Both the position numbers and the translations under genes were made by a program. Source: Terriglobus aquaticus (GTDB lineage Bacteria > Acidobacteriota > Terriglobia > Terriglobales > Acidobacteriaceae). Taken from it: a stretch of 64,000 nucleotides of DNA. The stretch lies in contig NZ_JAGSYB010000001.1 in assembly GCF_025685415.1 (NCBI RefSeq), positions 3,906,001 to 3,970,000 of the forward strand. The letters are read 5' to 3'. The notes below the pieces were generated by a model. The model was not told the origin of the DNA and searched no databases. It was given only the letters and a program-made list of their open reading frames with translations. Of this stretch, positions 873 to 11,837 are shown in pieces; the first letter of the stretch is position 1, and the number at the start of each line of letters is the position of its first letter.

Positions 873-2384
873 ATGCCGGAACCCAACCAACGAATGAACA
901 CCGGCGTCCCCGGTCTGGACGACATCCTCCAAGGCGGCCTGCCCGGCGGCGAAATGTACCTGCTCGAAGGCGACCCAGGCACTGGCAAGACCACAATCGC
1001 CATGCAGTTCCTGCTGGAAGGCATCCGCCGCAACGAACCCGTTCTCTATCTCAGCTTGTCCGAACCCGAACAGGAACTGCGCAGATCCGCTGACTCACAC
1101 GGCTGGGACTTCTCCGTCGTTCCTGTCGTCGAGTTCATCCCGGACGAAGCTTCCCTCGGTTCCGATGAGCAATACACCGTCTTCCATCCGACCGACGTAG
1201 AGCTGTCCAGCACCATCGACCGCATGTCCGCCGAGGTCGAGAAGGCGAAGCCAACCCGCCTCGTCATCGACTCACTCTCTGAACTCCGCCTGCTTGCCGT
1301 CGACAACATCCGCTATCGCCGCCAGTTGCTCGCCCTCAAGCGCTTCTTCGCGGGCCGCAGAACAACCGTGCTCATGCTTGACGATCGCACCTCCGATGGC
1401 CACGATCGCCAGCTCCAGAGCATCGCTCACGGCGTGATTCGCTTGGAAAAGCTGGCGCGCACCTTTGGCGTCACGCGCCGGCAGATCGAAATCCTCAAGC
1501 TTCGCGGATCCACCTTCCGCGAAGGCTTCCACGACTACAACATCCACTACGAAGGCGTGATCGTCTACCCGCGCCTGGTCGCCGCAGAGCACAGCACGAC
1601 CTTCGAGCACACCGTCGTTCAGAGCGGTCTGCCGCAACTGGACAAGCTGTTCGGCGGCGGCATCCCCCGTGGCTCCAGCACGCTGATCATCGGACCCACA
1701 GGAAGTGGCAAAAGCTCCATCGCCATGCAGTACGCCTATACGGCAGCGAGCCAAGGCGAGCGCGCCATCATCTATGCGTTCGACGAAGTTCTGCGCACCG
1801 CGCAGGAGCGTGCCGAAGGTCTGGGCCTCGACGTCCGCCCCCTGATCGACGCCGGCACCCTTGCCATGTCACAGGTCGACCCCGCGGAGCTTTCGCCCGG
1901 CGAGTTCATCTGGCAGATCCGTCGCGATGTAGAAGACCGGCATACCAAGCTTGTCGTGATCGATAGTCTCAACGGCTTCCTCAATTCCATGCCGGGTGAA
2001 ACGGACCTGCTTCTGCATCTGCATGAACTGCTCGCCTTTCTGAATCAGAAAGGCGTGGTCAGCCTGCTCATCATGACGCAGCACGGACTTGTCGGAACGA
2101 TGCAGGCACAGGTGGACGTCAGCTATCTGTCCGACACCGTTCTGCTTCTCCGCTACTTCGAAGCCTCCGGCCGCATTCGCCAAAGCCTTGCCGTGCTCAA
2201 GAAGCGCGTCGGGAACCACGAGCGCACGTTGCGAGAGCTAACGTTTCAGGACAACCGCATCCAGGTGGGCGAGGCGCTGGAAGATTTTCAGGGCGTGCTG
2301 ACGGGTGTTCCTACCTATCTCGGCAACAGACCGCCGGACTCTGCGGTGGGCAGCAGCCAGCGAGAAACCTTCCTTGGCAATTGA
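873..2384 (+). CDS. KaiC-like tandem RecA-fold ATPase
   Basis: The 503-residue protein has the two-lobed KaiC architecture. Lobe 1 (about 8-235) carries Walker A GDPGTGKT at 33-40 and a Walker B segment RLVID near 129-133. Lobe 2 (about 245-485) carries GPTGSGKS at 274-281 and KLVVID at 359-364. The length matches KaiC. At the place of the cyanobacterial phosphorylation pair Ser431-Thr432, this protein reads Ser417-Tyr418 before SDT. No kaiA or kaiB is nearby, so it is a KaiC homologue rather than a proven clock protein. AAGGAG precedes the ATG. The gene overlaps the next by 11 bases if that kinase starts at TTG 2374, so the two are probably cotranslated and functionally linked. Such ATPases usually work as hexameric signalling ATPases in the cytoplasm. 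Confidence 0.9.
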   Translation: MPEPNQRMNTGVPGLDDILQGGLPGGEMYLLEGDPGTGKTTIAMQFLLEGIRRNEPVLYLSLSEPEQELRRSADSHGWDFSVVPVVEFIPDEASLGSDEQYTVFHPTDVELSSTIDRMSAEVEKAKPTRLVIDSLSELRLLAVDNIRYRRQLLALKRFFAGRRTTVLMLDDRTSDGHDRQLQSIAHGVIRLEKLARTFGVTRRQIEILKLRGSTFREGFHDYNIHYEGVIVYPRLVAAEHSTTFEHTVVQSGLPQLDKLFGGGIPRGSSTLIIGPTGSGKSSIAMQYAYTAASQGERAIIYAFDEVLRTAQERAEGLGLDVRPLIDAGTLAMSQVDPAELSPGEFIWQIRRDVEDRHTKLVVIDSLNGFLNSMPGETDLLLHLHELLAFLNQKGVVSLLIMTQHGLVGTMQAQVDVSYLSDTVLLLRYFEASGRIRQSLAVLKKRVGNHERTLRELTFQDNRIQVGEALEDFQGVLTGVPTYLGNRPPDSAVGSSQRETFLGN

Positions 2385-3531
2385 GCACACACTTCTGGTG
2401 CTCGCCCCGGTCGGCCGTGATGCATCCTTGCTCGAAACCGCGTTTACTCAGGCGGGCATGGCGGCGGAGGTCGTTCCAAACCTCTCGGTTGCATCGAAAG
2501 CGGTCAGCAGCGGAGAAGTGGGCGCGCTTGTGATCGCTGCGGAAACGCTGGGCGACGGTGGCATCTCCCAATTGCGACAAGCCATCCAGGCGCAGCCGCA
2601 CTGGTCCGACGTTCCGCTTCTTCTTCTGCTGCCGGGACACGCCAAGGCTACGGCCAGCGCGCACCTGGAGGCTCTTCTGCAACACCTGCCGTCTGCCACA
2701 CTGGTCGAGCGACCCATTCGCCCTGCCACACTGCTCAGTCTGGCTCGAGCGGCGCTCAAAAGCCGCATGCGCCAGTATGAAGTGCGCAGTGCCATCGAGC
2801 AGCGCGACAAAGCCGCGGCAAAGCTCGTCGAAAGTGAGAAACTCGCCGCCGTCGGCCGCCTTGCCGCCTCCATCTCGCACGAGATCAACAATCCGCTCGA
2901 GTCCCTCACCAACCTGCTGTATCTTGCCCAGCAGGATGCGAATCTCTCGCTCGAAACGCGCGGCTACCTTGAAGCTGCGGACAAAGAGCTGGCCCGTGCC
3001 GCCCACATCACCCAGCAAAGCCTGCGTTTTCATCGCCAAAGCACACGGCCTCAACGCCTGGGTGCTGCCGATCTACTGGCACCCGTGCTCGCCATCTACG
3101 CGGGCCGGTTGTCCAACAACCACGTACGCCTGATCACCGACTTCCGCGACAACACACAGGTGGTTTGCCGCGAAGGAGAGATTCGCCAGGTGCTCAGCAA
3201 CCTGGTAAGCAATGCCATCGATGCGATGCGCCTCGGGGGTGTCCTGCAGATCTACTCCCACCGCGCCGTCCACCCCACCTCAGGCGAACCCGGCTTGGCC
3301 ATCCTGCTGTCCGATACGGGCCATGGCATGCCAGACCATGTTGCCCAGCGGATCTTTGAGGCTTTCTACACGACGAAGGGCATCAACGGAACGGGCCTCG
3401 GCCTCTGGATCTCCGCAGACATCGCACGCAAGCACGGTGGGTCCTTGCAGGTGCGCAGCCGTCAAGCGGGAAATCGTGCCGGGACCCTCTTTCGGCTGTT
3501 CCTGCCGTGTGAGCTTTCCACTTCGGTTTGA
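2374..3531 (+). CDS. Histidine kinase with degenerate receiver-like N-terminus
   Basis: The product is a cytoplasmic sensor kinase with no membrane segment. Residues 1-130 look like a CheY-type alpha/beta fold, but the strand that should end in the phospho-acceptor Asp reads GALVIAAETL, so phosphorylation there is unlikely. A short coiled linker leads to the dimerisation H-box ISHEINNP (His169 in this numbering). The ATP-binding lobe has the N-box NLVSNAID, DTGHGM, FEAFYTTK and GTGLGL. No response regulator lies in the window. The start is uncertain: TTG 2374 overlaps the KaiC-like gene by 11 bases, while GTG 2305 would add 23 residues. The overlap suggests the KaiC-like ATPase is input or output partner. 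Confidence 0.88.
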   Translation: MAIEHTLLVLAPVGRDASLLETAFTQAGMAAEVVPNLSVASKAVSSGEVGALVIAAETLGDGGISQLRQAIQAQPHWSDVPLLLLLPGHAKATASAHLEALLQHLPSATLVERPIRPATLLSLARAALKSRMRQYEVRSAIEQRDKAAAKLVESEKLAAVGRLAASISHEINNPLESLTNLLYLAQQDANLSLETRGYLEAADKELARAAHITQQSLRFHRQSTRPQRLGAADLLAPVLAIYAGRLSNNHVRLITDFRDNTQVVCREGEIRQVLSNLVSNAIDAMRLGGVLQIYSHRAVHPTSGEPGLAILLSDTGHGMPDHVAQRIFEAFYTTKGINGTGLGLWISADIARKHGGSLQVRSRQAGNRAGTLFRLFLPCELSTSV

Positions 3532-4688: not shown

Positions 4689-5261
4689 ATGGACCAGCCT
4701 GGGGAGATCACACAACTGCTGCGTGAGTGGGGCGGTGGCAAGCCTGTCGACTCTGACCACCTGTTTCAACTGGTGTACCCGCAACTGCGGGCCCTGGCTG
4801 CTTCGCTGATGCAGCGCGAACGCCGCGGGCACTTGCTGCAGCCAACCGGCGTGGTCAACGAGCTGTTTCTGAAGCTGGTGCAACAGCGCAAGCTGGAATT
4901 CAACAACCGCGAGCATTTCTATAGCTTCGCGGCGCGGCTCATGCGCCGCATCCTGGTGGACTTCGCCCGCGGCCAGGGTCGTGCCAAGCGCGACGGCGGG
5001 CAGGCGATTCCGCTGACCGATGAAATCCTCTGGGCTGACGCGGCGCCTGAGAACATCCTGGACCTCGACAACGCGCTGTCCGACCTGGACGCGGTGGACC
5101 CGCGCAAGTGCCGCATGGTGGAATTGCGGTTCATCCTGGGGTTTACGGCCGAAGAGACCGCCGACCTGATGGGCCTTTCCAAGGCCAGCGTGGACCGCGA
5201 TCTGCGCTTCGCAAGGTCCTGGTTGCAAACCCGCTTAGCTCCCTCTGTCATTCGGGCCTGA
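4689..5261 (+). CDS. ECF-type sigma factor of the acidobacterial/planctomycete kinase-linked class
   Basis: This 190-residue sigma factor has sigma-2 (about 25-95) and sigma-4 (about 125-185) regions; the latter contains the helix-turn-helix FTAEETADLMGLSKASVDRD. At the sigma-2.2 position, where most ECF factors carry the acidic DAED motif that contacts the polymerase clamp, it reads QPTG (Thr53) followed by VVNELFLKL. In the described kinase-activated ECF43 class (EcfP/PknT of Vibrio), a phospho-threonine supplies the missing charge. The Ser/Thr kinase gene starts 12 bases downstream, which fits that mechanism. No zinc-finger anti-sigma gene is adjacent. ATG 4689 is chosen because translation before it is not family-like. 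Confidence 0.9.
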   Translation: MDQPGEITQLLREWGGGKPVDSDHLFQLVYPQLRALAASLMQRERRGHLLQPTGVVNELFLKLVQQRKLEFNNREHFYSFAARLMRRILVDFARGQGRAKRDGGQAIPLTDEILWADAAPENILDLDNALSDLDAVDPRKCRMVELRFILGFTAEETADLMGLSKASVDRDLRFARSWLQTRLAPSVIRA

Positions 5262-5273
5262 CACAACACCTCT

Positions 5274-7790
5274 ATGTTTCGCGCCAACAGCAGTGAGGTC
5301 CTGAAACAGGAGCGCATGCCGGACGAGACAGAACTCCCAAGCTCGCTTTCGAGCACTTCACCACGAGAGTGGGAGGCCGCGCATTGGGCCGATTTGCAGA
5401 AGCTGTACCACATGGCTGCGGCGGCCGAGCCTGGTGAACGCACCCGCATCCTGCGTGCCGCTACCCAGGATGCGGAGCTGGTAACGCGGGTGCTGGAACT
5501 GTTAGAAGCCGATGCGGAAAGTGAGGTGGACCCGGCGTCCACTGCGCCTTCCGGTCCAGCATCCCCGGGCCGAGTCGGACCTTACAAACTGCTGCGGCTT
5601 ATTGGGAGCGGTGGCCTGGGAGCGGTGTACCTGGCGCAGCGCGTGCTGGGCGGAGCGGTGCAGCGCTGTGCTGTGAAGGTGCTGAGCCTGCACGCTGCCG
5701 GGCTCGCCATGGAAGCGCGGTTTCTGCGCGAACAGCAGATTATCGCCACGCTCGACCACCCGCACATCACGCGCATGCTCGACGCAGGCTTTTCCGACGA
5801 AGGCCAGCCGTTCCTCGCGATGGAGTTTGTTGACGGTGACACGTTGACCGGCACGTGCGACACGCAACGCATGCCCATTCGAGATCGCATCCAGCTCTTC
5901 TTGCAGGTATGCGATGCCGTCTCCTATGCCCACCGCATGCTCGTGGTGCACCTTGACCTAAAGCCCAGCAACATCCTCGTCTCGCGTAGCGGCGAAGCGA
6001 AGTTGCTGGACTTTGGCACGAGCAAGCTGGTTGACCCGGACTCCGCGCTCACCACCACCGTGCTTGCTACCCCGGCGTACGCCAGCCCGGAGCAGATGCG
6101 CGGCCAGCCGGTCAGCACCGCGTGTGACGTGTATGGCCTCGGTGCCGTGCTCTATGAGTTGTTGTCCGGAGAACGTCCTTGGGGCGCGGCGTCCGGAGTT
6201 CTGGTCATGGAGCATGCACTGCGCGAGCAGGAGCCGCCAGCCATCACTGAAACGGTGAGTGAGGACGCGGCGAGCTTGCGGGCCGAAGGCTCGGCGGCAG
6301 CACTGCGGCAACGTTTGCGCGGCGATCTGGCAAGTATCGTGGCCAGATGCCTGCGCAGCCGCCCCGGTGACCGGTACGTCTCAGTAGACCGGCTCGCGGA
6401 CGACTTGCGGCGGTACCTGCAAGGGCGACCGGTTGCGGCCAGGAAACGGACGCTTCGCTACCGTTCCGGAAAGTTTCTGCGCCGCAACTGGAAGCCGGTC
6501 GTTTCCGTCGCAGCCGTGCTGCTGGCGTTGGTTACAGCGGCTACGTTTGGGTATGTTCGCCAGCAGCAGGCTCTGCGACAGGGCGAGCGCGCGGAACGCA
6601 TGCAGAACTTCCTCTACAGCGTCTTGCGCCTGGCGAACACGAACTATACGGGCCGCCCCGCAACTACGATTTCTGAGTTTCTCCAGCTTGGGGTGACGGC
6701 TCTGCCGGAGTTCATCCACGATGCCGCCGATCAACGGTCGGCCCGGCTCAGCCTCGGTGAGTCCATGTTCGACAACTCGGATTTCGATCACGCGCTGCCG
6801 GTGCTGATAGCCGTTCGAAGCGAAGCAACACAGGCCGGCGACATACCAATGGCTGCAGAAGCCACCGGTTTCGCGGGCATGGTGCAGTCGGAGCTGGGCC
6901 ACTATGACGAGGCAGCGCGGCTGCTGGACGAAGCCATGCATCTGCAGGATCGCAAGGGCGTAACTGCGGCGCAACGGCTATGGATTGTCAACTTCTATGT
7001 CTCCAATCGCTACAACAGCGGCGTACGGCTGGCGTCTGACGCCGCGCTGCTGCAACGAACTCTAGACGAAAGCCGTAAGTCTGCGATCCCGGACCGGGAG
7101 CTTTCCTGGGCTCTCGGCAACCTGGCGACCTTGTACTCGCGAACAAACGAGTTGGACCGCGCCAGGCGTGCCATTGAGGAGTCGCTTGCCATCCAACGCC
7201 GCCAGCCGTACACCTCGTGCGATCAGTCATTTGGTTTGGATCTGCTGGGTGATCTGGACATGAACCAGGGGAAGGACGAGTCCGCCCTGCGCAACTACCA
7301 GGCTGGCTACTCGAGCATCGTGGCCTGCAAAGGGCCGAGCGACCTCGGCAGCCTGGAATTACAGGTTCCGCTGGCGCGCCTCCTGGTCAAAGAGCACCGT
7401 GCTGGCGAAGCGATTCAGTTGCTGGAACCGGCGATCCCGGTCTGGCGTAAGTCACTGCCCGGCAACCCTGAAGTTGGCTACACTTTGACCACTCTGGCGC
7501 AGGCTCGCATGCAGCAGGGCGATGCGGGGCAGGCGGTCTCGCTGGCGCGCGAGGCACTCGCCGCGCAGTCGGGGAAGATGAAACACAATAGTGCCGCCAT
7601 GGCACTCACCTACAGCGTGCTGGCGAAAGGTCTGGCCGGGCAAGGTAAGTCGCGCGAAGCTCTGGAGGCCTCGCGCGAGGCGGATACGATTTTCGCGAGC
7701 CTCTCGTCGCTGTCCATCATGAGCCGGCAGATCCAGACGGACAATCACGCCTTGCTCGCTCGGCTGTCCGCCCAAACGCCGCATGCGTAG
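5274..7790 (+). CDS. Membrane Ser/Thr protein kinase with TPR-rich sensor domain
   Basis: The kinase has 838 residues. Residues 104-385 form a Hanks-type kinase: glycine loop GSGGLGAV at 111-118, Lys135, catalytic loop HLDLKPSN at 226-233 (HLD in place of the usual HRD, so a non-RD kinase), DFG at 246-248, and ATPAYASPEQ. One transmembrane helix spans about 408-428. The rest, outside the membrane, is TPR-like helical repeats to the C-terminus. It lies 12 bases after the ECF sigma gene and 67 before a giant secreted protein, so the three are probably one operon. Likely role (inference): sense an envelope signal and phosphorylate the sigma factor. ATG 5316, with AGGAG just before it, is an alternative start. 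Confidence 0.9.
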   Translation: MFRANSSEVLKQERMPDETELPSSLSSTSPREWEAAHWADLQKLYHMAAAAEPGERTRILRAATQDAELVTRVLELLEADAESEVDPASTAPSGPASPGRVGPYKLLRLIGSGGLGAVYLAQRVLGGAVQRCAVKVLSLHAAGLAMEARFLREQQIIATLDHPHITRMLDAGFSDEGQPFLAMEFVDGDTLTGTCDTQRMPIRDRIQLFLQVCDAVSYAHRMLVVHLDLKPSNILVSRSGEAKLLDFGTSKLVDPDSALTTTVLATPAYASPEQMRGQPVSTACDVYGLGAVLYELLSGERPWGAASGVLVMEHALREQEPPAITETVSEDAASLRAEGSAAALRQRLRGDLASIVARCLRSRPGDRYVSVDRLADDLRRYLQGRPVAARKRTLRYRSGKFLRRNWKPVVSVAAVLLALVTAATFGYVRQQQALRQGERAERMQNFLYSVLRLANTNYTGRPATTISEFLQLGVTALPEFIHDAADQRSARLSLGESMFDNSDFDHALPVLIAVRSEATQAGDIPMAAEATGFAGMVQSELGHYDEAARLLDEAMHLQDRKGVTAAQRLWIVNFYVSNRYNSGVRLASDAALLQRTLDESRKSAIPDRELSWALGNLATLYSRTNELDRARRAIEESLAIQRRQPYTSCDQSFGLDLLGDLDMNQGKDESALRNYQAGYSSIVACKGPSDLGSLELQVPLARLLVKEHRAGEAIQLLEPAIPVWRKSLPGNPEVGYTLTTLAQARMQQGDAGQAVSLAREALAAQSGKMKHNSAAMALTYSVLAKGLAGQGKSREALEASREADTIFASLSSLSIMSRQIQTDNHALLARLSAQTPHA

Positions 7791-7857
7791 ATTTTGCGGT
7801 TAGGGGATGACACAACCCGCCGCGATCTGACGCCGTAGGGGACAGAGGTTTCCTCCG

Positions 7858-10800
7858 ATGTCTATTCGATCCACCTTGCGTGGCTTCGCCACCGCATTGC
7901 TGCCGCTGTTGGCTGGTAGCTGCGCGCTTGCGCAGATTCGACCGGTCTCTGTCACGCCTTCTTCCAACCCAACGCAGCAGCGCAACGCGGTCAGCGCGTT
8001 CGGGCACCTGCCGCTCGGCTTTCAACCCAACCGCGGCCAGTCCGACCCTGCGGTTCAGTTCGTCGCGCGCACGCCCGAGTCCACGGTTTACCTGACCGGT
8101 GCCGATGCTGTGCTCGAAACCGCAACCTTCGGCAAGGACGCCCACGGCCAGGCACGGTTGAAAACCGACATGGCTGTGCGCATGCACCTGGTGGGCGGAA
8201 ATGCGACTCCGTCAGCGAGTACCGGCGATGTGCTGCCCGGCACGGTCAACTACCTGCGCGGCAATGACCACAGCCAATGGCACACCGGCCTGCCGCAGTA
8301 CAACAGTGTCAGCCTGGCTGAGGTATACCCGGGCGTCGACCTGAAGTACTACGGCCACGGATCGACACTCGAATACGACTTCGTGGTGGCAGCAAATGCA
8401 GATCCCACGCAGATTCAACTGCAGTTCCAAGGCACCAAGGCGCATGCAAACCAGGACGGTGGACTTGTGCTGCCCACCGCAAACGGAAGCGAGCTTCGCT
8501 TCGACAAGCCAGTCGCCTATCAGCAGATAGACGGTAAGCGCGTGCCCGTTGCCGCGGAGTTCCAGATTGCCGACGGACGTGTCGGCTTCAAGCTCGGCAG
8601 CTATGATCACAGCCGCGATCTGGTCATCGATCCCACGCTTGTCTACACCGGAACTCTCGGTACCGGCGTGCAACAGACCAACTTGAGCCAGATCGCTGTG
8701 GCCAGCTCGGGCGAGCTTTACATGCTCGGCACCACCAACGACTCCACGTTTCCTGTCACGGCCAACGCCTACCAGGGCACCTGCGGGCCGGCCGCGCCGA
8801 ACTATGGTCAGTACTGCAGCGGCAGCGGGCAGACGGCGGCATTCGTCGCCAAGTTGAGCGCGGATGGCACCAGTCTGGTCTACGCCACCTACCTCTCCGG
8901 CACACAGTCCTACGAGTACGGCGACGCCCTCACGGTGGACTCCGCCGGCGTGGCCTACCTGTTCGGCCGCACCGGGTCAGATACATTCCCGGTGACGCCG
9001 GACGCGTTTCAAGCTCATTGCATTGCAGGTGTCCCAAACTTTCCCGGCGGGGTCCAGGCCCAGTGCGACGGCTACTACGCCCGTGGCGGCGGTGCCGGCT
9101 ACCAGTCGCTGAATACGCCCGCTTACTTCGCCAAGCTCAGCGCCGATGGCAGCCGGCTGCTTTACTCCAGCTATCTTGGCGGCACCACCCCCGTGTATCC
9201 GAACTCGATTCAGCTGGATGCAACGGGCAACATTTACCTGTCCGGTCAGGTCAACGTCTTCAGCACCGCCGACCTCACCCCAGGACAACTGCCGACCAGC
9301 AACTCCCAGTTTCCCGGCATTACATCCAGCGGATACTTGACCGTAGCCAGCGCGGCAAATGGCCACGGCAACGATCAGGGTATCGGCATCGCGGCGTTCC
9401 TCAGTAAATTCTCCAACGACGGTCACACGCTGCTGTACGGCACCTTTTTCGGTGACAACACCACCGGTGCAGACACCTACCCAACGACCATGACGGTCGG
9501 CGCCAACGGGGTGGCCTTCCTCGGCGGCTACACCGACGCGACGAATCTGCCAGTCACCGCCGGAGCGATCAAGGCTGCCTGCACCTCGCCCGGCACAAAC
9601 TATGGCGGCATGTACTGCAACACGATCGACGGCTATGTTGCCGCGATCGACACCACCAAGTCCGGTTCAGCCTCACTGGTTTACTCCACGCGTCTGGGGG
9701 GCACCGCCACCTCGCAGGGCAGCAATATTCCCGACCAGCAGGTACTAGGCCTGGTGGCCGACAGCAGCAACAACGTCTACGTGACCGGCTACACGTTCGA
9801 GTCCACCTTTCCCGTCGGCACTGGCGGGTTCCAGGCGACCTGCCCCAACAACACTGGAAACATCGATCCCACTGCATCCGGCTACATCGATCGCTGTGAT
9901 TCGACGTTTGTTGTCAAGCTCAACACCAAAGGAACCCAGATCCTCGCAGGCACATTCCTAGGCGGTCCGCACCTGCGATCGGCAGAGTCCAAGGGCTACC
10001 AGGTTCGACTGGACAGCAAGGGCCAGGTTTACGTCTACGGCTACTCCTCGGACGGCGGCGGCGACTTCCCACAGGTCAATCCGCTGCAGGCGTATCACAG
10101 CGGCAACAATCTCGCGATCAGCACCTTCACCGCAGACCTGAGCAAGCTGCTCTTCTCTACTCGTTTCACGAATCCGAGTTACCAGGACCACAGCGTCTCG
10201 GTCGCGGGCGGCCTCGCTCTCGACGGCGCGGACAACATCTACTTCACCGGCGCTACGACGGACACGATGTTTGCCGCAACAACAGGCACCTATCAGACCG
10301 CGGCAACCACCGGAGCAGGGAATCACCCCTTCTTCGTGAAGCTGAGCAAGGTGCTGCAGCCCACCCAAGTGACTGCAAGCGCCACCCCGAACCCGGCAAG
10401 CCAAGGTGCGAATGTTACTTATAAGGCGGTGGTCGCCGGACTTTATCAGACCACGCCGGCGCTGACGGGTACCGTGACCTTCCAGTTCACTAACACCACA
10501 CCCGCGACCAAGATCGGCACCGGAACTGTGGACAGCACGGGCACCGCAACCTTCACGGGCACGGCACCCGCGGCCGGCACCTACACGCTCACCGCAAGCT
10601 ACGGTGGCGACACCAACTACGACGTCAGCACCTCGTCCGCTGTTACGTTCACCGCAAACAGCACGGCGACCACCAGCACCACCGTGCTCAGTTCAACACC
10701 GACCGCGCCGGTAGGGAGCAGCGTTAGCTTCACAGCGGCGGTTACCTCCACGGCCAGCGGGACACCGACGGGAACGGTGACGTTCTACGATGGCAATCCA

Positions 10801-11769
10801 ACTGCGGGCGGAACCCAGCTTGGCACGGGATCGGTAACTGGCGCTCATGCGACGTTCGCGACGAACTCACTTGCGGTCGGTACCCACACCATCTACGCGG
10901 TGTATGGAGGCGATACCAACTTCGCCGCATCCACCGGGTCGGTAACACAGGTGATCGTTCAGAAGGTGGCGACGACCACTCAACTTACCTCGTCGGCTGC
11001 AACCGCGGCCACTGGCGCGGCGGTTACGTTGACCGCGACTGTCACCGCAGCTACCACGGGCGTCCCCACGGGAACGGTCACCTTCCTGCAGGGCACCACC
11101 ACGCTCGGAACGGGAACGCTGAACAGCAGCGGCGTCGCGACACTGCAGATCTCCACGCTACCCGTGGGTTCGAACAGCATCGTGGCGAGTTACGGGGGCG
11201 ATAGCAACTTCCTCGCGTCGAACTCTGCCGCCTACACGCAAACCATCACCGCTGCCACGATCGCCATCTCGGTCAGCCCGACCACGCTGACGGTGACGCA
11301 CGGCTCCAGCGGCACCGCCACCATCACCGCCACGCCTACGGGCGCGTACTCGGGAGCGCTCTCGTTCAGTTGCGGCACGCTTCCCAGTAACGCTTCCTGC
11401 TCTTTCCAACCCGCCACGCTCACGTTCAGCAGTTCGAGCACGGCGCAAACCACCACGCTCACCTTCAGCACGCAGGCGGCAACGCAAGCGCTGCTGCGGC
11501 GCGATTCGCTCGGTATGCGACTGACCCAGGTTGTGGCAGCTACGTTGTTCCTGCCACTTGGGCTCGCCGGCTTCGCCTTCCGCCGCCATCGCCTGGGTCT
11601 GCTGCTCATGCTGGTAGTGCTTACCACTGCGGTGGCGGGCATCTCCGGCTGTGGTGGCAGCAGTACACCCAGCACTCCAACGACGCCGGTGGGCACCTAC
11701 ACGGTCCCGCTGGTAGTTACGGTGAACGGAACCACCAGTACCACCCCGCTTACGGTGGTGGTGCAGTAA
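7858..11769 (+). CDS. Giant secreted SBBP beta-propeller / Ig-repeat protein
   Basis: This 1303-residue exported protein starts with a signal peptide (to about Ala25). An N-terminal domain includes GFQPNRGQ and YPGVDLKYYG, hallmarks of SBBP-repeat proteins. Repeated blades of the form AFVAKLSADGTSLVYATYL, each followed by DS.G..Y..G and FPVT, run from about residue 280 to 830. After that come three Thr-rich Ig-like repeats (each near TGTVTF and SYGGD) and a last beta domain. At about 1231-1265 a hydrophobic, Arg-rich segment ends in GCGG, and a further beta strand tail follows. This tail is frequent in Terriglobia surface proteins. Adhesion or envelope structure is plausible, but no enzymatic motif is visible. 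It is probably transcribed with the sigma factor and kinase. Confidence 0.88.
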   Translation: MSIRSTLRGFATALLPLLAGSCALAQIRPVSVTPSSNPTQQRNAVSAFGHLPLGFQPNRGQSDPAVQFVARTPESTVYLTGADAVLETATFGKDAHGQARLKTDMAVRMHLVGGNATPSASTGDVLPGTVNYLRGNDHSQWHTGLPQYNSVSLAEVYPGVDLKYYGHGSTLEYDFVVAANADPTQIQLQFQGTKAHANQDGGLVLPTANGSELRFDKPVAYQQIDGKRVPVAAEFQIADGRVGFKLGSYDHSRDLVIDPTLVYTGTLGTGVQQTNLSQIAVASSGELYMLGTTNDSTFPVTANAYQGTCGPAAPNYGQYCSGSGQTAAFVAKLSADGTSLVYATYLSGTQSYEYGDALTVDSAGVAYLFGRTGSDTFPVTPDAFQAHCIAGVPNFPGGVQAQCDGYYARGGGAGYQSLNTPAYFAKLSADGSRLLYSSYLGGTTPVYPNSIQLDATGNIYLSGQVNVFSTADLTPGQLPTSNSQFPGITSSGYLTVASAANGHGNDQGIGIAAFLSKFSNDGHTLLYGTFFGDNTTGADTYPTTMTVGANGVAFLGGYTDATNLPVTAGAIKAACTSPGTNYGGMYCNTIDGYVAAIDTTKSGSASLVYSTRLGGTATSQGSNIPDQQVLGLVADSSNNVYVTGYTFESTFPVGTGGFQATCPNNTGNIDPTASGYIDRCDSTFVVKLNTKGTQILAGTFLGGPHLRSAESKGYQVRLDSKGQVYVYGYSSDGGGDFPQVNPLQAYHSGNNLAISTFTADLSKLLFSTRFTNPSYQDHSVSVAGGLALDGADNIYFTGATTDTMFAATTGTYQTAATTGAGNHPFFVKLSKVLQPTQVTASATPNPASQGANVTYKAVVAGLYQTTPALTGTVTFQFTNTTPATKIGTGTVDSTGTATFTGTAPAAGTYTLTASYGGDTNYDVSTSSAVTFTANSTATTSTTVLSSTPTAPVGSSVSFTAAVTSTASGTPTGTVTFYDGNPTAGGTQLGTGSVTGAHATFATNSLAVGTHTIYAVYGGDTNFAASTGSVTQVIVQKVATTTQLTSSAATAATGAAVTLTATVTAATTGVPTGTVTFLQGTTTLGTGTLNSSGVATLQISTLPVGSNSIVASYGGDSNFLASNSAAYTQTITAATIAISVSPTTLTVTHGSSGTATITATPTGAYSGALSFSCGTLPSNASCSFQPATLTFSSSSTAQTTTLTFSTQAATQALLRRDSLGMRLTQVVAATLFLPLGLAGFAFRRHRLGLLLMLVVLTTAVAGISGCGGSSTPSTPTTPVGTYTVPLVVTVNGTTSTTPLTVVVQ

Positions 11770-11803
11770 CAAGACTGCGGCCGGGAACCCGGCGGCTTGG
11801 ACG

Positions 11804-11837
11804 GCGGGCACACCCTCTGGGTGTGCCCGCTTTTCTT
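11804..11837 (+). terminator. Rho-independent terminator
   Basis: A perfect 12-bp GC-rich stem (11804-11815 with 11819-11830) with a 3-base loop is followed by TTTTCTT. It ends the transcript of the giant secreted protein gene. Confidence 0.9.

Follow-up and report, generated by a model that had tools for sequence, protein, structure and literature searches.

A likely kinase-switched sigma factor of the ECF43 type encoded next to a membrane Ser/Thr kinase in Terriglobus aquaticus

Introduction

The closest described counterparts of the system considered here are two sigma factors of the extracytoplasmic function (ECF) class ECF43, EcfP of Vibrio parahaemolyticus and EcfK of Xanthomonas citri, for which a common mechanism has been proposed: the sigma factor is uncharged at the critical motif, the kinase adds a phosphate and the modified protein binds RNA polymerase (PMC8999054, PMC8103513). 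In X. citri, the kinase PknS (833 aa, of which 83 form an N-terminal extension; it also has a membrane helix and periplasmic tetratricopeptide repeats, TPRs) phosphorylates T51 of EcfK as well as the linker between the sigma2 and sigma4 domains; EcfK needs either T51 or T106, and up to five phosphosites are given for it (PMC13147305). The ECF43 consensus at the position of the DAED motif of region 2.2 is QTTA (PMC13147305). We describe a 64,000-nucleotide stretch of the Terriglobus aquaticus genome (hereinafter the window) in which a gene for an ECF sigma factor that reads QPTG in place of DAED is followed by genes for a membrane Ser/Thr kinase and for a giant, probably secreted protein. The sigma factor and the kinase are likely to form an ECF43-type pair in which the kinase switches the sigma factor, an assignment that is based on membership in the family TIGR02999 and on the match to PknS, in place of a tree with EcfP and EcfK.

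Sequences compared

The family set was drawn from 61 relatives, phylum samples of 396 and 297 genomes, and 22 named loci, and consists of 201 distinct sigma factors (identical ones counted once), of which 199 have a readable motif and 2 lack it. The set is not random, as it includes the relatives above the cut-off with a few below it, best-match loci, 80 further stretches picked by hand among the matches listed, and the named loci, so that the conservation of Thr might be overstated. Its rows carry L numbers; L001-L038 and L096 (which are duplicates or were superseded by longer stretches), L073 (the same as L134) and L042-L044 (unused) were dropped, and L177-L206 are DUF7948 loci that served only as a control. 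The tree includes 197 rows, with sigma factors of fewer than 150 residues excluded, and the motif was masked in the tree used for the analysis of Glu at position 51 (E51).

The sigma factor and the adjoining kinase

The sigma factor scores 187 bits against TIGR02999 (Sig-70_X6; curated cut-off 126.15) and 152 bits against PF07638 (cut-off 21), and both the profiles and the AlphaFold2 model (mean predicted local distance difference test score, pLDDT, of 81; two helical domains and a disordered linker) indicate the ECF architecture, with sigma2 and sigma4 only. A Foldseek search with this model retrieved ECF factors such as RpoE, SigW and SigH, with TM-scores of only 0.3-0.45 over the whole chain. 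When QPTGVVNELFLKL is aligned to the DxxDxxQE consensus (taken from PMC13147305), QPTG fills the DAED position, and Thr53, the second residue of the modeled helix 52-65, corresponds to T51 of EcfK and to the phosphorylated Thr of EcfP. Such an uncharged replacement of DAED, with Thr at the EcfP/EcfK phosphosite, and an adjoining Ser/Thr kinase gene are features of ECF43. The T. aquaticus genome encodes four members of TIGR02999, three of which have a kinase directly behind them.

The kinase contains the Gly-rich loop, Lys, HxD, DFG and SPE motifs and follows the plan of PknS, namely an N-terminal extension, a Hanks kinase, one membrane helix and C-terminal TPRs. Among the 2557 Protein Data Bank (PDB) sequences that it matched, the best is 9EED (2.5e-47, over residues 35-382), that is, PknS(1-364) of X. 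citri (PMC13147305), with an alignment that takes in the N-terminal extension of PknS; the second best is PknB (3e-38). The model of the kinase (mean pLDDT 79.9; predicted TM-score, pTM, 0.48) includes a helical repeat domain at residues 466-834 which, by analogy with PknS, is probably periplasmic.

The original prediction, made from the letters of the window, had proposed an ECF43-like arrangement of a sigma factor with QPTG and a candidate phosphothreonine at residue 53, a kinase with a membrane helix and a TPR domain starting 12 bases further on, and no anti-sigma factor. The motif, the family, the arrangement and both parts of the kinase are borne out, and no anti-sigma gene was seen in the lists of open reading frames (ORFs) around the pair, where the small ORFs were not all scanned for families. 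The 12 bases, however, apply only to the first ATG (5274). Because AGGAG is located 3 bases before ATG 5316, with no such site at 5274, and the pLDDT of the model stays below 50 over residues 1-28, the kinase probably starts at 5316, which leaves a gap of 54 bases.

The pair in its clade and across the family

In the tree, the sigma factor of the window belongs to a clade of 16 rows (SH-aLRT, the Shimodaira-Hasegawa-like approximate likelihood ratio test, 100) with 11 members from Acidobacteriota; the other 5 are from Pseudomonadota and mostly labeled as Steroidobacteraceae or gammaproteobacterial metagenome-assembled genomes (MAGs). All 16 sigma factors carry QPT[GS]VVNE, with Thr53 identical across the two phyla, and each is immediately followed by a kinase gene (in L129 and L135 with ORF calls that are broken or overlap), with varied flanking genes around the conserved pair. 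Thr8, Thr153, Thr157 and Ser164 are identical in all 16 as well. Furthermore, each kinase of the clade has the catalytic loop HLDLKPSN together with DFGTSK; of the other 141 adjacent kinases, 126 have HRD and 8 another loop, and 7 are unreadable. HRD, the feature of RD kinases, is thus missing from the kinase of the window; it is not a defining feature of ECF43. Judged by the general distinction between RD and non-RD kinases, the HLD loop suggests that the kinase lacks the usual dependence on a phosphate in the activation loop; the non-RD clade poses the question of how such a kinase is switched on.

In the proteobacterial MAGs (L135-L139, including Steroidobacteraceae), the sigma factor is 57-59% identical to the acidobacterial one and is accompanied by its kinase. 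The presence of these members in the clade suggests either horizontal transfer or a binning error.

The alignment around residue 53, which had been proposed as a check, favors this residue in the wider family, too: among the 199 sigma factors, it is Thr in 181, Ser in 11, Ala in 3, Asn in 2 and Gly in 2, so that 192 have Thr or Ser, a share close to the 88% of Thr given for ECF43 (PMC13147305). The loss of DAED extends across the sampled family, 15 of the 199 having an acidic residue anywhere in positions 51-54. Because 155 of the 199 members are followed directly by a kinase encoded on the same strand, a chance or kinase-less pairing was rejected. In 170 members, a kinase match was found no more than 3.5 kb away to either side, and 12 lack one, with at least 1.3 kb covered on each side; the status is limited for the rest, with none downstream and too little upstream sequence in 16 rows and a stretch that is too short in 1.

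We also considered that an acidic motif might compensate for the absence of a downstream kinase (8 of 43 rows versus 7 of 155, Fisher 0.005). This was rejected: the difference vanishes in part because some kinases are divergently oriented upstream, the counts with both flanks known being 1 of 12 kinase-less rows versus 11 of 170 (p 0.57), and the independent-pairs test gave no support.

Glutamate at position 51

Eight of the 199 rows have Glu at position 51, which corresponds to the first D of DAED. This residue is present in 4 of the 5 rows with Ala or Asn at 53 (L121, L065, L057 and L064) and in 4 of the 192 with Thr or Ser (three with Thr and one with Ser; Fisher 5.7e-6 with the two Gly rows dropped and 3.7e-5 with these kept); within the 29 rows with a residue other than Gln at 51, again with the Gly rows dropped, the comparison is 4/8 versus 0/21 (p 0.003). 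On the motif-masked tree, in which many branches are weak, eight changes are needed for the eight rows, so that E51 looks repeatedly gained. The three rows with Ala53 have readable kinases directly downstream, with the loops HRD, HRD and HCD, and the kinase of L064 is in divergent orientation. Judging from these sequences, Glu51 in the Ala/Asn53 variants is a possible natural charge swap, and the variants provide a ready test of the charge model.

The giant gene behind the kinase

The giant protein is the only DUF7948 match in the T. aquaticus genome and belongs to the 13 ORFs that match Big_3_5 (12 of these exceed the cut-off), and its sequence indicates that it is probably secreted. Near its C-terminus, two hydrophobic stretches and SGCGG (around residue 1263) precede the final Ig-like tail, an odd spot for a membrane or lipid anchor. 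The gene directly behind the kinase encodes a protein with 966-2248 residues in 7 of the 11 acidobacterial members of the clade (the window, L127, L128, L130, L132, L133 and L134) and in 1 of the 5 proteobacterial members (L136). This linkage, in 8 of 16 members, exceeds the original suggestion that the sigma factor controls envelope genes, perhaps including the giant secreted protein just downstream. For comparison, the window and loci L045-L095 together have 472 non-overlapping ORFs with 150 residues or more, and 34 of these reach at least 950 residues.

A hydrophobic N-terminal stretch is present in 7 of the 8 giant proteins (by sequence inspection, with no signal-peptide predictor; the start of L130 is unsure). 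Their domains differ: Pfam matches place DUF7948 in the window, L130 and L132, and similarity adds L128 and L136; L127 has NHL, SBBP and MBG domains; L133 and L134 have He_PIG domains; and Big_3_5 is over the cut-off in the window, L127, L130, L132 and L134 and just under it in L133. Given that none of 30 high-scoring DUF7948 loci from the class that served as a control has a kinase, TPR or sigma match in its flanks of about 1.5 kb, the link between the kinase and the giant gene is a property of this clade and not of DUF7948 genes generally.

The sigma factor, kinase and giant genes probably form one transcription unit because a terminator-like hairpin follows the giant gene (Table 1) and none was found on the + strand between the sigma factor and giant genes, before 11803; the scan yielded 4 terminator-like sites versus 6.1 expected, so that weight is given to the long stem of 13 pairs alone. 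TGACGC occurs in 5 of 8 regions before giant genes and TGACG in 7 of 8. In shuffled sequences, the best 6-mer count was reached in 5 of 200 cases, the best 5-mer count in 3 of 200 and that of 7-mers in 128 of 200, a weak signal from related sequences; L130 was left out, L078, which is outside the clade, was included, and the region of L127 was the 160 bases behind the kinase. In L128 (3525-3627), a locus from the cultured relative Terracidiphilus gabretensis S55, a perfect hairpin (CCTGTACC, loop TGACGCGAAC, GGTACAGG) is located just before the giant gene, and GCGAAC elements that resemble it are also found in L127 and L132.

Table 1. Features of the sigma factor-kinase locus (positions in the window)
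Feature	Position	Strand	Basis or remark
ECF sigma factor, 190 aa, TIGR02999 / PF07638	4689..5261	+	profile matches
QPTG (residues 51-54) where DAED of region 2.2 would be; Thr53 = ACC 4845-4847, candidate phosphosite	4839..4850	+	
Thr110 in the linker between sigma2 and sigma4; may correspond to the second phosphosite region of EcfK; not conserved	5016..5018	+	S/T in 2/16 clade members
Ser/Thr kinase, 838 aa from first ATG	5274..7790	+	Pkinase and TPR matches; more plausible start ATG 5316
Kinase domain, residues 104-382	5583..6419	+	Pkinase profile 104-368; PknS 9EED match covers 35-382
Catalytic loop HLDLKPSN (HLD instead of HRD)	5949..5972	+	sequence; HLD in 16/16 clade members
Membrane helix, residues 409-428	6498..6557	+	hydrophobic stretch, within model helix 406-454
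TPR-type helical domain, residues 466-834	6669..7775	+	TPR matches and model
TGACGC in kinase-giant gap; weak candidate regulatory element	7828..7833	+	recurrence before giant genes
Likely output gene: giant protein of 1303 aa with DUF7948, an SBBP beta-propeller repeat and Big_3_5 Ig-like domains	7858..11769	+	profiles
Terminator-like hairpin, 13 pairs, T-rich tail; end of presumed operon	11803..11831	+	

Neighboring genes and related loci

Upstream of the pair (873-3531), a tandem KaiC-like ATPase (873-2384) is overlapped by a histidine kinase ORF (2305-3531). An Rfam scan of the window gave no match, a scan for sigma-70 promoters found 1, on the - strand, with 1.0 expected, and inspection by eye for a shared ECF-type promoter before the sigma genes yielded nothing consistent. 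A paralogous TIGR02999 sigma gene of T. aquaticus, G000:C1:3555311-3555817 (L041), which has no kinase nearby, is separated by about 2 kb from a divergently oriented ORF of 1512 aa with Big_3_5 domains, and in L091, the gene for a relative of the L041 sigma factor is 263 bp from an oppositely oriented 1207-aa ORF similar to the giant protein of the window. In some relatives, TIGR02999 sigma copies are broken (split or with stop codons), namely in L093, L094 and the L023-type loci G023:C138, G028:C26 and G052:C232.

Alternative explanations

Several observations weigh against a kinase-switched ECF43-type factor with the giant gene as its output. The arginine of HRD, which is present in PknS, is missing from the kinase of the window. 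All 12 family members without a nearby kinase match (at least 1.3 kb on each side) retain Thr or Ser at 53. The T51A variant of EcfK stayed functional in X. citri, so that T51 alone is not always decisive (PMC13147305). When well-supported branches alone are used, the strict independent-pairs test, for which only 4 pairs are available, gives no significance for the association between E51 and the loss of Thr. Finally, 8 of the 16 clade members show no giant gene directly behind the kinase, although L126 ends too soon to judge.

The last point bears on the possibility that the giant gene is a mere neighbor with its own promoter and not a target of the sigma factor. The gene is absent from this place in L129, L131, L140 and 4 of the 5 proteobacterial members, the gaps between the kinase and giant genes (68-278 bp) leave room for separate promoters, and DUF7948 proteins occur without such a pair, as in the control loci. 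However, the linkage is maintained in half of the clade even though the giant proteins differ in their domains, and a giant gene is found also behind the pair of the sister lineage (L078 and L080). We consider independence of the giant gene somewhat unlikely.

It is less probable, and in our view rather doubtful, that family and kinase are as described here but the decisive phosphosite is located elsewhere, for example in the sigma2-sigma4 linker, as T106 of EcfK, with Thr53 mainly structural. The alternative requirement of EcfK for T51 or T106 and its up to five phosphosites speak for this version, and, given that the 12 kinase-less rows keep Thr or Ser, retention of Thr solely for the neighboring kinase is disfavored. 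The conservation of Thr may have a structural cause, with Thr53 located early in a modeled helix, or may reflect other kinases acting in trans. However, the linker residue Thr110 is Ser or Thr in only 2 of the 16 clade members, compared with 16 of 16 for Thr53, and a conserved linker phosphosite was rejected on this count; the four equally conserved Thr and Ser residues are outside region 2.2; and a purely structural Thr53 does not predict an acidic residue at 51 where Thr or Ser is lost.

Finally, a sigma factor that is active without phosphorylation, next to a kinase with other targets and by historical accident, would fit the 12 kinase-less members and the several substrates of many Ser/Thr protein kinases (PMC13147305) but not the retention of the pair in 155 of 199 family members and throughout the clade despite varying flanking genes, nor the family-wide loss of DAED with so few acidic residues in positions 51-54, and appears highly improbable.

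Comparison with known systems

Under the favored interpretation, a kinase-switched sigma factor, the membrane kinase would sense something outside the cytoplasmic membrane via its TPR domain and phosphorylate the sigma factor on Thr53; the phosphate would supply the negative charge that the absent DAED would otherwise provide; and the phosphorylated protein would bind RNA polymerase (the beta' clamp) and transcribe its targets, which most likely would include the giant secreted protein of its own operon. From EcfP/PknT and EcfK/PknS, we infer the phosphorylation of Thr53, its effect on polymerase binding and the direction of the switch.

A kinase-switched mechanism is already known, although its description is recent, and the clade adds two unusual, clade-wide features. 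In open-access texts, we found no description of the clade, its third gene or the E51 variants. Tentatively, we propose a sub-class of ECF43 in which TPR receptor kinases of the non-RD (HLD) type, with no need for the usual activation-loop phosphate, would switch a sigma factor that serves a single operon-mate, a giant Ig-like/beta-propeller protein at the surface or secreted, within a wider family that would have repeatedly gained a phosphomimetic Glu51; if so, sigma factors with E51 and A53 should be active without the kinase. The acidobacterial case is compact, with the signal, the switch and the likely output together in three genes that can be moved into a laboratory host.

Among TIGR02999 members, within which the sigma factor of the window falls by the curated cut-off, its clade is distinguished by QPT[GS]VVNE, by kinases of the non-RD type and by the frequent presence of a giant third gene. 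EcfP-PknT, which was compared by description and not by sequence, is similar in the uncharged motif that replaces DAED (STTA in EcfP), the single Thr phosphosite, the Ser/Thr kinase gene nearby and the lack of an anti-sigma factor, and differs in its response to polymyxin (PMC8999054, PMC8103513). EcfK-PknS shares a sigma factor without the full DAED and with Thr at the same place, and an adjoining Hanks-type kinase of the same layout that is the best PDB match of the kinase of the window. In contrast, EcfK keeps an acidic residue beside the Thr (QATE) and the linker phosphosite T106, whereas the window has QPTG and no conserved linker Thr; PknS has HRD and the clade of the window HLD; and the output of EcfK-PknS is a type VI secretion system.

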